Assembly: GCA_026125445.1 (NCBI GenBank)
Contig: JAHCLE010000018.1
Span: forward strand, 1-36,254
DNA: 36,254 bases
Source: Burkholderiales bacterium
GTDB taxonomy: Bacteria; Pseudomonadota; Gammaproteobacteria; Burkholderiales; Usitatibacteraceae
Direction: 5' to 3'
The notes under the pieces are model-generated. The model was not told the DNA's origin. It saw only the letters and a program-made list of their open reading frames with translations, and ran no database searches. The translations under genes and the position numbers were made by a program. The first letter of the stretch is position 1. Each line of letters begins with the position of its first letter. This document shows, one piece after another, positions 5,454 to 10,181 of the stretch.

Positions 5454-6485
5454 CTAGACCCGCACGAAACGCCTCAACCCGCCTTCCTCGATGCGCACCA
5501 CCTTGCCCTCGGCCTCGAGGTAGTGCAGGTGCGCGATGGCCTCGCCCATGGCGAAGCCCAGCTGGTGCTCGTCGAGCTTGCGCCGGAACAGCACGGGGAG
5601 CACCTCGTACGCGGTCACCGGCCGATCGCAGGCGGCGTGGAGCTTCTCGAGCCGCTCCGCGTGGTGCGCGCCCAGCTGGATGATGCGAGGGTGCAGGCCC
5701 TCGAAGACGCGGTCGTGCGAGGGAAGCACGCGCACCGAGCCGGGGATGTCGGCGAAGCGCGCGAAGGAGTCGAGGTACAGGCGCAGCGGGTTCGCCTCCG
5801 GCTGGTTGCCCCAGACGCCCACGTTGGTGGTGATGCGCGGCAGGATCTGGTCGCCGGAGATGAGCACGCCCAGCGAGGGGCAGAAGAGCGCCGCGTGCTC
5901 CGGGGCGTGGCCGTGCACGCAGATCACGCGCCAGTCGTGGCCGCCGATGGCGAGCGTGTCGCCGTGCAGCATGCGCCGGTAGGTGCGCGGCAGCTCCGGC
6001 ACGCCGCGCCGGTAGCGGTTGCCCGTGCGGGCCTTCTCGGGGATGGCGGAGACGTCGAGGCCGTTGAGCCCGAAGAAGGCGATGCCCGTGGGACGGTCGA
6101 AGCCCGCGGTGTCGTCGCGCGCGGCGTGCGCGGAGAGGAACTCCGCGGCGGTCATCCAGACGGGTGCGCCCGTGCGCCGGGCGAGCCACTCGGCGCTTCC
6201 CACGTGGTCGGGGTGGTAGTGGGTGACGACGATGCGCTTCACGGGGCGCCCGGCCATCGCGCCCGGGAGGAGCCGCTCCCAGAGCGTCCAGGTTTCCTCG
6301 GTGCCCAGGCCGGTGTCGACCACGGTCCAGCCGTCGCCGTCCTCGAGCAGCCACAGGTTGATGTGGTCCAGCGCGAAGGGCAGCGGCATGCGGATCCACC
6401 ACACGCCGGGGGCGACGGGCATCGCCTCCCCGGGGGCGGGGAGCGTATCGGCGAAGGGATGGCGGACCGCGGTCCTGTCGGTCAT
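5454..6485 (-). CDS. Metallo-beta-lactamase-fold hydrolase
   Basis: A 343-residue cytoplasmic enzyme. The di-metal signature THYHPDHVG gives His89, His91, Asp93 and His94. Further ligand candidates are in VHGHAPEHAALF, ISGDQILP and LPSHDRVF. The C-terminal 90 residues form a helical, winged-helix-like extension, as in the LACTB2/glyoxalase-II-like branch. The substrate cannot be told from sequence: thioesters, lactones and RNA are all known for this fold. The ATG at 6485 lies 31 bases after the stop of the cyclase gene on the same strand, so the two are probably co-transcribed. Its 3' end faces the 249-base region with the 16-bp inverted repeat. Confidence 0.9.
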   Translation of the reverse strand: MTDRTAVRHPFADTLPAPGEAMPVAPGVWWIRMPLPFALDHINLWLLEDGDGWTVVDTGLGTEETWTLWERLLPGAMAGRPVKRIVVTHYHPDHVGSAEWLARRTGAPVWMTAAEFLSAHAARDDTAGFDRPTGIAFFGLNGLDVSAIPEKARTGNRYRRGVPELPRTYRRMLHGDTLAIGGHDWRVICVHGHAPEHAALFCPSLGVLISGDQILPRITTNVGVWGNQPEANPLRLYLDSFARFADIPGSVRVLPSHDRVFEGLHPRIIQLGAHHAERLEKLHAACDRPVTAYEVLPVLFRRKLDEHQLGFAMGEAIAHLHYLEAEGKVVRIEEGGLRRFVRV

Positions 6486-6516: not shown

Positions 6517-8760
6517 CTACTTGGTCGTGAACACGAACACGCCGTCCCAGTCTGCGGGCGGCGGGTTCTGGCGGAAGTGCGCGATGCGCTCGAGGTAGAG
6601 CTTGTAGAGCTTGGTCTCGGGCGCGGCGTAGGCGAGGTTCTTCATCAGCTTCTCGGCCTCGTCCCAGCGCTGCGCCCGGTAGGCCTCCAGCGCCTTGTGG
6701 AAGCGCTCGACCTCCGCGACGGTCTCGGGACCCGCCTCGCCCTGCCTGCCGACGGGCTCGTAGATCGCCACGCCCTCGTGCTTGCCCTTCACCTGCACCT
6801 TGTCGATCTCGCGGTAGACGAAGCCGGGGGCCTTGCGGACGATGTTCTCGGTCACGAGGATGCCGACGCCGTACTGCTTGGTGAGGCTCTCCAGGCGCGA
6901 GGCGAGGTTCACCGAGTCGCCCATCACCGTGTAGGAGCGCCGGAACTTCGAGCCCATGTCGCCCACGTTCATCGTGCCGCAGTTGAGGCCCACGCCGATG
7001 TGCAGCACCGGCCAGCCCCGCTTCGCGAATGGCGCGTCGAGCTCGCGCAGGCTCTTCTGCATCGCGATGGCCGTCTCGAGCGCGTGCGTGGCGTGGTCGG
7101 GGTCCTGGAGCGGCGCTCCCCAGAAGGCCATGATCGCGTCGCCGATGTACTTGTCGATGGTGCCGCGCTTCTCCTGCACCCTCTCGGTCATCGCCGTGAG
7201 GTAGGTGTTCATCAGGTCCTTGAGCCCCTCCGGCGTGAGGCCCTCGGAGATCGAGGTGAAGTCGCGCACGTCGGAGAAGAGGACGGTCATCTCGCGGCTC
7301 TCGCCCTTCATCGAGTACTCGCCGGGGTTCTTCGACATCTCGTCCACCAGCTCCTTGGGCACGTAGGTGCCGAAGAGCCCGGTGATCAGGCGCCGGGAGC
7401 GGGCTTCCGCGAAGAAGCCGTAGACCATGTTGAGGAAGTAGAGCAGGAGCAGCAGCAGCAGCGGGGAGGCGATGGGCACCACCCAGCGATGGGACTGCCA
7501 CATGTAGAGGTTCAGCGCGATCACCAGCGCGACGAGGACGACGACCACGGCGGTGGACCAGAGGGCCGAGAGCCGAGGCATCACGAGCGCGAGGGGCACC
7601 CCGATCAGCAGGACGATGACGATGACGATTCCCTGCACCTCGGGCGGCTTGTTCTTGATCGTCCCGTCGAGGATGCCGGAGACGAGGCTTGCGTGCACCT
7701 CGACGCCGGCCAGGTCCTCCTGGATGGGGGTGGCGCGCAGGTCCACCAGGCCCTGGGCCGAGGTGCCCACGATGACGATCTTGTCCTTGAGTTCGTCGGG
7801 CGGAAGCGTGCCGCGGATCACGTCGGTGGCGGACACGTACCGGAAGCCGCCCGGGGCGCGATAGGGCACGAGCGCGGTCATGGCATTGTCCAGGGGAATC
7901 TGGACGTCGCCGACCTTGATCGCGCTCATCCAGCCCTCCAGCCGGTTGCCGACCTTGCGCGGCTTGTCGAGCACGATCCTCACCGGCGCGTTCCCCAGGT
8001 AGGTGCGCGCGATCGCCAGGGACAGGGCCTCGTAGAAGCCGTCCTTGAAGCGCATGAACATGGGCACGCGCCGCGTGATCCCGTCGATGTCCAGGGCCGG
8101 ATAGAAGTGGCCCGCCGCGGCCGCGGCCTTCTGCAGCTTCTCGACGTTGCCGCTGAAGCCCGTGGAGACGTAGTGCCGGTACTCGACGTCGCCGAGCGCC
8201 TTCATGTCGAAGATGGGCGGCGGCAGGGTGCCGGCGATGTCCTCCTTGCCCCCCATCGCCACGCCGAGGACCACGGGCCACTTGGCCAGCTCGTCGGCCA
8301 GGATCTGGTCGTAGTCCAGCGAGGCCCGGGTCCGCTTCAGGAATGCCTGGTACTCCGCGTTGTCCTTGAGCTCGCCGCGGGCGAGGCTCTCGAAGATGGG
8401 CAGGCCGGAGCTGGTGTCCGGCTCGGGTAGAGCGATGTCGAACCCGACGACCCGCACCTGGTAGCGCTCGAAGAGCTGCCTCACCATGGTGGCCAGCTTC
8501 TCCCGCGGCCACGGAAACCGCCCTTCCGCGTTGAGGCTCTTCTCGTCGATGTCGAGGATGACCACCCGCGTGTCGCGCGTCTTGGGCATGAAGAGGCGGA
8601 TCCGGGTGTCGTAGGACCAGAGCTCGAGCTGCTGGATGGCCCGCAGCTCCTTGTAATCGCCCTCGTGCAGGACGAACACGAGGACCAGCGCGAGGCCGAT
8701 CACCGCGCGGACGACGTCGTTGAGGGAGAACTTCGGCATCCAGCGTGCGCTAAGGGCCAC
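6517..8760 (-). CDS. CHASE2-sensor adenylate/guanylate cyclase
   Basis: A 747-residue membrane sensor that should make cyclic AMP or GMP. Residues about 13-28 are a membrane anchor. An extracytoplasmic CHASE2 domain (about 35-345) follows, with the typical VVILDIDEKSL and VIVGTSAQGLVDLRATP segments. Three membrane spans lie at about 372-450. A class III cyclase domain (about 480-665) follows, with metal-site residues in FSDVRDFT and in the DKYIGDAIMAFWGAP segment. The C terminus (about 690-747) is a short helical tail. The start is GTG 8760, or possibly ATG at 8739. A TATCAT box at 8817-8822 (minus strand) could drive it, without a good -35. It precedes the metallo-hydrolase gene. The ligand sensed is unknown. 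Confidence 0.93.
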   Translation of the reverse strand: MALSARWMPKFSLNDVVRAVIGLALVLVFVLHEGDYKELRAIQQLELWSYDTRIRLFMPKTRDTRVVILDIDEKSLNAEGRFPWPREKLATMVRQLFERYQVRVVGFDIALPEPDTSSGLPIFESLARGELKDNAEYQAFLKRTRASLDYDQILADELAKWPVVLGVAMGGKEDIAGTLPPPIFDMKALGDVEYRHYVSTGFSGNVEKLQKAAAAAGHFYPALDIDGITRRVPMFMRFKDGFYEALSLAIARTYLGNAPVRIVLDKPRKVGNRLEGWMSAIKVGDVQIPLDNAMTALVPYRAPGGFRYVSATDVIRGTLPPDELKDKIVIVGTSAQGLVDLRATPIQEDLAGVEVHASLVSGILDGTIKNKPPEVQGIVIVIVLLIGVPLALVMPRLSALWSTAVVVVLVALVIALNLYMWQSHRWVVPIASPLLLLLLLYFLNMVYGFFAEARSRRLITGLFGTYVPKELVDEMSKNPGEYSMKGESREMTVLFSDVRDFTSISEGLTPEGLKDLMNTYLTAMTERVQEKRGTIDKYIGDAIMAFWGAPLQDPDHATHALETAIAMQKSLRELDAPFAKRGWPVLHIGVGLNCGTMNVGDMGSKFRRSYTVMGDSVNLASRLESLTKQYGVGILVTENIVRKAPGFVYREIDKVQVKGKHEGVAIYEPVGRQGEAGPETVAEVERFHKALEAYRAQRWDEAEKLMKNLAYAAPETKLYKLYLERIAHFRQNPPPADWDGVFVFTTK

Positions 8761-8959: not shown

Positions 8960-9136
8960 TCAGCCGCGGATGGTGTAGCTCCCGTTTCCCACGGCCGTCG
9001 TCGTCTTCTGCTCGGAGCCCGCGAACAAGCCCCGAATGGTATCGAGTATCGTGTCGATCGCGCCGCTGCTGGTGTACGTCGTCATGTCGACGCCGCCGGC
9101 CACGATTTCCAGTTCCTTGTCGTCGAGTGTGCGCAT
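8960..9136 (-). CDS. Small peptide with double-glycine leader (bacteriocin/RiPP-like precursor)
   Basis: A 58-residue peptide. Residues 1-15, MRTLDDKELEIVAGG, match the double-glycine leader pattern (acidic helix, L-x-x-E-L-E-x-V-x-GG) cut by C39 peptidase-ABC exporters. The 43-residue remainder has no Cys, 13 Ser or Thr, one amphipathic-looking stretch (AIDTILDTIRGLF) and the end SYTIRG. The start is fixed by a strong AGGAGGAGA ribosome site directly upstream; the frame upstream of it is shadow coding. A GT2 glycosyltransferase is 187 bases upstream on the same strand and a CHASE2 cyclase follows. No exporter or maturation enzyme is in the window. Function (antimicrobial, signal or other exported peptide) is inference. 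Confidence 0.72.
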   Translation of the reverse strand: MRTLDDKELEIVAGGVDMTTYTSSGAIDTILDTIRGLFAGSEQKTTTAVGNGSYTIRG

Positions 9137-9323
9137 GGCTCTCCTCCTGGAAGGGGTGATGCGATGGGCGCCGGGGATTGCGCCCCCCGCCTGGCGCGGA
9201 GCGAGGGAGGGCGGGTTAACGGATGCTTGCAAGCCCGCACAAAGGATAAACAAGTCGATGCCGGTTCCGCAACCGGGCCGGGACGGGGTGCGGCGCCCGC
9301 GGTGAGTGTCCGGGCGCGATGCC

Positions 9324-10181
9324 TCAGCGGCGCCACCAGCTTCCGAGGGCGGCGGCCAGGCGCGCGCCGAGCGGGGCCCGTGCCGCGGTCGCGCGCTCGC
9401 GGAAGGCGCGCGGCGGGTCCGCGGCGATGAATTCCCGCACCCGGGGCTGGAACTCGGGGAAGCGCTCGTCGACGATCGCCTGCGCGCGGTTGCGGATCTC
9501 CTGGGCCCCGCCCCCGAACGAGACCTCCCCCTGGTGGAAGACGAAGGTGTCCGCAGCGAGCCAGTGGCGCCAGCCGGCGCGCGAGGCCCGCATGCAGAAG
9601 TCGACTTCCTCCCCGTAGCCGCGCCCGAAGGCCTCCTCGTCGAAGGGCCCCACCTCGTCCAGGCAGCGGCGCGAGATGAACATGCAGAAGCCGACGGCTG
9701 TCGGGATCTCGACCGCGCGGCCGGCGTTGGCCCGGGCGAAGGCCGCGTCCAGGCGGGCCGTGGTCGTGCCTTCGGGCAGCGGGTTGGACTGCGCGAAGCG
9801 CGGGTAGCTGCAGATCGTGGCGTTGTTGGAGAAGGGGGTCACCGTGCCGGCGCGCGCCTCGCGCGCGGCGCAGGCGGCGATGCGGTCCAGCCACCCGGGC
9901 GCCACCTCGGTGTCGCTGTTGAGGAGCACCACGTCCCGGTCGGGGTGCGCGCGCATGCCCTCGTTCACGGAGGCCACGAAGCCCCGGTTGCGGTCGTGCA
10001 CGAGCAGGGTGAAGCGCCCCGGCGCGGTCTCGCGCAGCCACGCCGACAGGGCGGGCTCGGGGCTCGCGTCGTCCACCACGAGGATCTCGTGGGGCGCGCG
10101 CACCCGGGCGGCCAGCACGCTCTCGAGGCAGCGGCGCGTCTCGGCCAGCCCTCGGTAGGCGGGAATGATGACGTCGATCAC
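9324..10181 (-). CDS. Glycosyltransferase family 2 protein
   Basis: A 285-residue transferase of the GT-A fold with no membrane span, so cytoplasmic or membrane-associated. It opens with IDVIIPAYRG. The nucleotide-binding aspartates follow in VVDDAS (Asp37-Asp38), and the metal-binding motif is LLNSDTEV (Asp90). The middle part (VEIPTAVGFCMFISR, then EEVDFCMRA) resembles rhamnosyltransferase-type GT2 enzymes that decorate surface glycans. The start is GTG 10181, giving the usual N terminus; there is no clear ribosome site. A TAGAAT at 10209-10214 on the minus strand may be a -10 box. No other glycan genes are nearby; the only gene following closely is the double-glycine peptide, so a peptide acceptor is conceivable but unproven. 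Confidence 0.9.
   Translation of the reverse strand: MIDVIIPAYRGLAETRRCLESVLAARVRAPHEILVVDDASPEPALSAWLRETAPGRFTLLVHDRNRGFVASVNEGMRAHPDRDVVLLNSDTEVAPGWLDRIAACAAREARAGTVTPFSNNATICSYPRFAQSNPLPEGTTTARLDAAFARANAGRAVEIPTAVGFCMFISRRCLDEVGPFDEEAFGRGYGEEVDFCMRASRAGWRHWLAADTFVFHQGEVSFGGGAQEIRNRAQAIVDERFPEFQPRVREFIAADPPRAFRERATAARAPLGARLAAALGSWWRR

Follow-up and report, generated by a model that had tools for sequence, protein, structure and literature searches.

A small reading frame with a double-glycine leader downstream of a GT2 glycosyltransferase gene: a candidate orphan precursor for export in trans

We wanted to determine whether a 58-codon open reading frame next to a glycosyltransferase gene in a bacterium of the order Burkholderiales encodes a secreted peptide, and whether the glycosyltransferase takes part in making it. 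The window, i.e. the whole stretch of DNA analysed here, comprises 36,254 nucleotides of one contig. The original prediction had described the reading frame as a double-glycine leader peptide, with the neighbouring GT2 enzyme as its possible modifying enzyme, as in glycocin loci.

The candidate peptide gene and its leader

The reading frame starts with ATG and lies on the minus strand at 9136..8960, with the stop codon at 8962..8960. The ribosome-binding site AGGAGG (9143..9148, minus strand) was found 6 bases ahead of the start codon. The product consists of the 15-residue leader MRTLDDKELEIVAGG (9092..9136, minus strand) and the 43-residue core VDMTTYTSSGAIDTILDTIRGLFAGSEQKTTTAVGNGSYTIRG (8960..9091 with the stop codon, minus strand), which contains 13 Ser/Thr and no Cys. 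Thus the frame with its good ribosome site, the leader ending in VAGG and the Ser/Thr-rich, Cys-free core were all confirmed as they had been described. The codon score of the peptide frame was 0.41 bits per codon, higher than that of 97% of wrong frames in the window and at the 14th percentile of its true gene frames (mean 0.56, s.d. 0.54). The promoter of the gene probably lies in the gap between the GT2 stop codon and the ribosome-binding site (9149..9323, minus strand). Scans around the gene, which are weak in GC-rich genomes, gave no promoter or terminator consensus. The peptide was the sole candidate ORF between the GT2 gene and the adenylate cyclase gene that follows; no candidate immunity gene was found among the ORFs of this interval, and no exporter gene was seen within the window.

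We compared the leader with the consensus of Gram-negative double-glycine leaders, M(R/K)ELX3E(I/L)X2(I/V)XG(G/A), as quoted in PMC3140520. The sole mismatch at the fixed positions was Thr for Glu at position 3. The leader also shares its length from Met to GG and its pattern with those of p1, a precursor family of the genus (MKxLTDxExLAIAGG) whose leaders are kept in 6 of 8 genus genomes (MNVLTDDEVLAIAGG, MKELTDREVLAIAGG, MKELTDLEVVCVAGG and MKTLTEQEILAIAGG; MKTLTEQEALAIAGG adjoins one further pattern match). The leader was scored against the five sequences MKELTDREVLAIAGG to MKTLTEQEALAIAGG, with the window peptide left out of the reference. The fetched stretches of the source genome, 135.8 kb, offered 8,069 possible start sites; among these the leader ranked second, directly after the genome's own p1, and 1 of 100,000 shuffled leaders scored as high. 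Both figures are somewhat optimistic, as p1 was picked as a yardstick after the likeness had been noticed. A DNA pattern of ribosome site, ATG and leader matched 2-7 times per genome in the eight genus genomes, and the reversed pattern once overall. Alone this pattern is unspecific, because several of the matches are N-termini of other proteins, e.g. fumarate reductase flavoprotein. The signal model TIGR01847 did not report the window peptide and matched a precursor encoded near another exporter of the genome (contig C2, described below; also in the sister species G003) below the cut-off. On the basis of the consensus and of the likeness to p1, the leader is predicted to be cut after Gly15.

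The calculated pI of the core is about 4.7 and its average mass is 4471 (4.47 kDa). AlphaFold, run on the single peptide sequence, gave a low-confidence model (pLDDT 59.7) with one helix at residues 24-39, and the hydrophobic moment peaked at 0.46 in the same part. The core may therefore hold one amphipathic helix, as modelled.

Relatives of the peptide and of its neighbours

The original prediction had proposed a search for homologues with a conserved GG. Neither the GTDB r220 contigs nor any of three genome samples, which overlap and comprise 100, 399 and 369 genomes, yielded a homologue over the full length of the peptide, and searches of PHROGs and PDB sequences gave no match. Three of the best order-level matches were read; two were HU proteins, and the third was part of a larger, unrelated protein. 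In class-wide searches residues 9-57 matched HU repeatedly, with E values per genome down to 7e-5. A profile built from HU sequences selected by the peptide gave 23 bits, compared with at most 12 for shuffles, a score that we discounted because the sequences of the profile had been chosen for matching the peptide. An unselected profile of 27 HU/IHF sequences gave 7.2 bits (9 of 20,000 shuffles were as good) and one of 8 HU-proper sequences gave 9.9 bits (1 of 20,000), and the Pfam HU model was not reported for the peptide. With unselected profiles the likeness to HU is at the level of chance, given the comparison against thousands of families, and we did not accept a relation to HU, even a distant one being improbable.

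The GT2 gene (9324..10181, minus strand; PF00535, E 2.6e-17) is located upstream of the peptide gene on the same strand, and its end is separated from the peptide start codon by 187 bp. A gene for a CHASE2-adenylate cyclase lies on the other side of the peptide gene (6517..8760, minus strand). In a sister species whose GT2 is 84% identical (G004), the cyclase gene directly follows GT2 at a distance of approximately 100 bp and the peptide is absent between them. The bases GGTGTATCATTC ahead of the cyclase start are identical in both genomes, and the window has approximately 490 extra bases between GT2 and the cyclase gene, with the peptide gene inside. Another sister species, G003, has a GT2 that is 92% identical; there the contig breaks off within GT2, and the cyclase gene is truncated at its 5' end. 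In further relatives, including G001, G006 and G007, the GT2 match sits in a longer open frame. Two of these clusters were annotated, those of G006 and G007, and in both the GT2 domain was fused to glycosyltransferase group 1 domains; the interval from GT2 to the cyclase gene encodes a WbsX protein in G006, and a GHMP kinase, a nucleotidyltransferase and further glycosyltransferases in G007. At two loci from other species of the genus (L104 and L105), a variable glycan-biosynthesis cluster was observed where the window has one GT2, with the fumarate reductase gene on one side and the cyclase gene on the other. Thus the pair of GT2 and peptide, whose conservation had been proposed as a check, is not kept: G004 lacks the peptide, and in G006 and G007 the GT2 domain belongs to multi-domain enzymes.

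Among NCBIfam models GT2 matched no glycocin glycosyltransferase; the best were MftF and exopolysaccharide models, far below the cut-off. The nearest solved structures were weak, generic matches to glycosyltransferases and chondroitin synthase. GT2 is probably a surface-glycan enzyme and not a part of the peptide system. Its locus is a variable surface-glycan locus, of which the GT2 of the window looks like the remaining enzyme. The adenylate cyclase is a neighbour only and stands outside the peptide system.

Exporters and other double-glycine precursors of the genome

The source genome encodes three C39 peptidase-ABC exporters, on contigs C2, C57 and C235. All of them score over the curated cut-off and have the catalytic Cys, His and Asp intact. 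Those on C57 and C2 lie beside double-glycine precursors of their own, and none of the three adjoins the window peptide. The claim that the exporter would be encoded elsewhere was thus supported.

The C57 exporter belongs to an operon (L032 15502..10580, minus strand; also in L107, L108, L109, L095 and L098) that consists of p1, p2 (MKEIEKKDEPEVSGG...), p3 (...VGGGGDSCSPESILGITSSLTQAYENLVDFTSHVIERVSIK), a CPBP-type protease, HlyD, supported by a Pfam match, and C39-ABC. The p1-p2-p3 set is present in 6 of 8 genus genomes, the source genome counted. The p2 peptide is Pro-rich, p3 carries the conserved QAYxNLVDFTSHVIERV, and no NCBIfam family was matched by the precursors of this operon. In L108 there is one precursor-like ORF more, the fourth, and also a second membrane-protein ORF. 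A GT2 gene is also located directly upstream of p1 (L032 16469..15633, minus strand), beside a heptosyltransferase-like gene, and occupies the same place in L107, L108 and L109; at the p1 operon, unlike in the window, the neighbourhood of GT2 and double-glycine peptides is conserved.

With the NHLM model TIGR03796 the C2 exporter scored higher than the cut-off. The precursor encoded near it has 79 residues and a leader that ends in VSGG (L030 8057..8296 and L071 1459..1698, both on the plus strand); its protein sequence is identical in the source genome and in G003. This precursor holds two copies of VVKL(E/D)K(I/V)TVTAKRE. On C235, C39-ABC and a HlyD-like ORF, the latter called by reading only, are accompanied by two tandem 43-residue GGG peptides (L035 5857..5726 and 5697..5566, minus strand) with the common ending LELSLVGGGSGDVAFG. 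The tandem peptides are convergent with the pair of HlyD-like and C39-ABC genes and have about seven residues after GGG. TolC-type outer-membrane proteins (OEP family) are also present in the source genome. With three C39 exporters, HlyD and TolC-type proteins available, an orphan precursor could therefore mature in trans.

Interpretation and comparison with known systems

We consider it likely that the peptide is an orphan double-glycine precursor, processed and exported in trans, and as part of the same reading that its ORF is a real gene. The observed parts are the ORF, the ribosome site, the leader pattern, the gene-like codon use, the exporters of the genome and the absence of the peptide in G004. 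The gene would be transcribed from its own promoter, and another locus of the genome would supply the exporter whose C39 domain recognises the leader. The C57 exporter is the most likely partner, because the leader closest to that of the window peptide belongs to p1, a precursor of the same operon as this exporter. The precursor would be cleaved behind VAGG, and the core, acidic, rich in Ser/Thr and with its predicted amphipathic helix, would leave the cell through ABC, HlyD and a TolC-type channel. The core is probably unglycosylated and would act either like a class II microcin or as a signal.

The frame could also be a chance ORF or decaying sequence without a product. It is a singleton, it is missing at the sister locus, and 58 codons stay open easily at 69% GC; however, the ribosome site, the leader pattern and the codon use concur, and we regard this explanation as unlikely. 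Far less probable is a remnant of an HU-type DNA-binding protein with an accidental GG motif: it would account for the repeated class-wide matches and for the score of the selected profile, but unselected HU sets gave 7-10 bits and the Pfam model was silent. We assign an equally slight chance to a glycocin locus, in which GT2 would glycosylate Ser/Thr of the core before export. The position of GT2 just upstream on the same strand, the Ser/Thr-rich core and the GG leader agree with it. However, G004 has GT2 at the same place without the peptide, the GT2 of relatives belongs to multi-domain glycosyltransferases of a glycan cluster, neither the family search nor the structure matches point to a glycocin enzyme, and no exporter is nearby. 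Disulfides occur in all experimentally characterised glycocins (PMC12457901), and the core has no Cys. We therefore rejected GT2 as a glycocin enzyme on the relatives' loci, the family search and the Cys-free core, and the corresponding part of the original prediction did not hold. That prediction had also made itself depend on peptide homologues, on conserved neighbours of GT2 and on an exporter in the genome; the exporter was found, but the samples searched gave no homologue, and the neighbours of GT2 were not conserved together with the peptide.

Within the preferred reading of an orphan precursor, the product might be a secreted signal or a programmed-death factor instead of a bacteriocin. 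The absent immunity gene and the acidic core are in favour of this sub-case, as is the precedent of bacteriocin-like peptides of Neisseria, for which antimicrobial activity was undetected and which promoted autolysis (PMC11798529). However, no receptor or regulator gene was recognised beside the peptide and nothing supports this role specifically, so we regard it as a tentative option. We hold just as tentatively the idea that this is a newly arisen or newly acquired secreted peptide with an undescribed core family, which uses the p1-p2-p3 exporter in trans as a narrow-range microcin or signal.

In summary, these results suggest one more candidate secreted peptide of a size that gene callers miss, and indicate that a GT2 gene beside a double-glycine peptide need not signal a glycocin. 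Of greater use is a by-product of the analysis, the genus-conserved operon of three precursors with CPBP, HlyD and C39, whose precursors stand outside NCBIfam families. In comparison with the glycocins sublancin, glycocin F and enterocin F4-9, the locus shares the GG-type leader and the presence of a glycosyltransferase gene close by, but it lacks Cys, a match to a glycocin-type glycosyltransferase model, an adjacent exporter and a thiol oxidoreductase, and its neighbour pair is not conserved. Gram-negative double-glycine precursors and class II microcins resemble the peptide in leader consensus, small size and a core that follows GG, and C39-ABC, HlyD and TolC-type proteins are likewise encoded in the genome; the window peptide differs in that it lies apart from the exporter, has no immunity gene and carries a core unlike known families. 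The core of p1 (MKELTDREVLAIAGG...) is unrelated, and p1 is encoded in the p2-p3-CPBP-HlyD-C39-ABC operon, whereas the window peptide stands alone; the two share the length of the leader from Met to GG, its pattern and a strong ribosome site.
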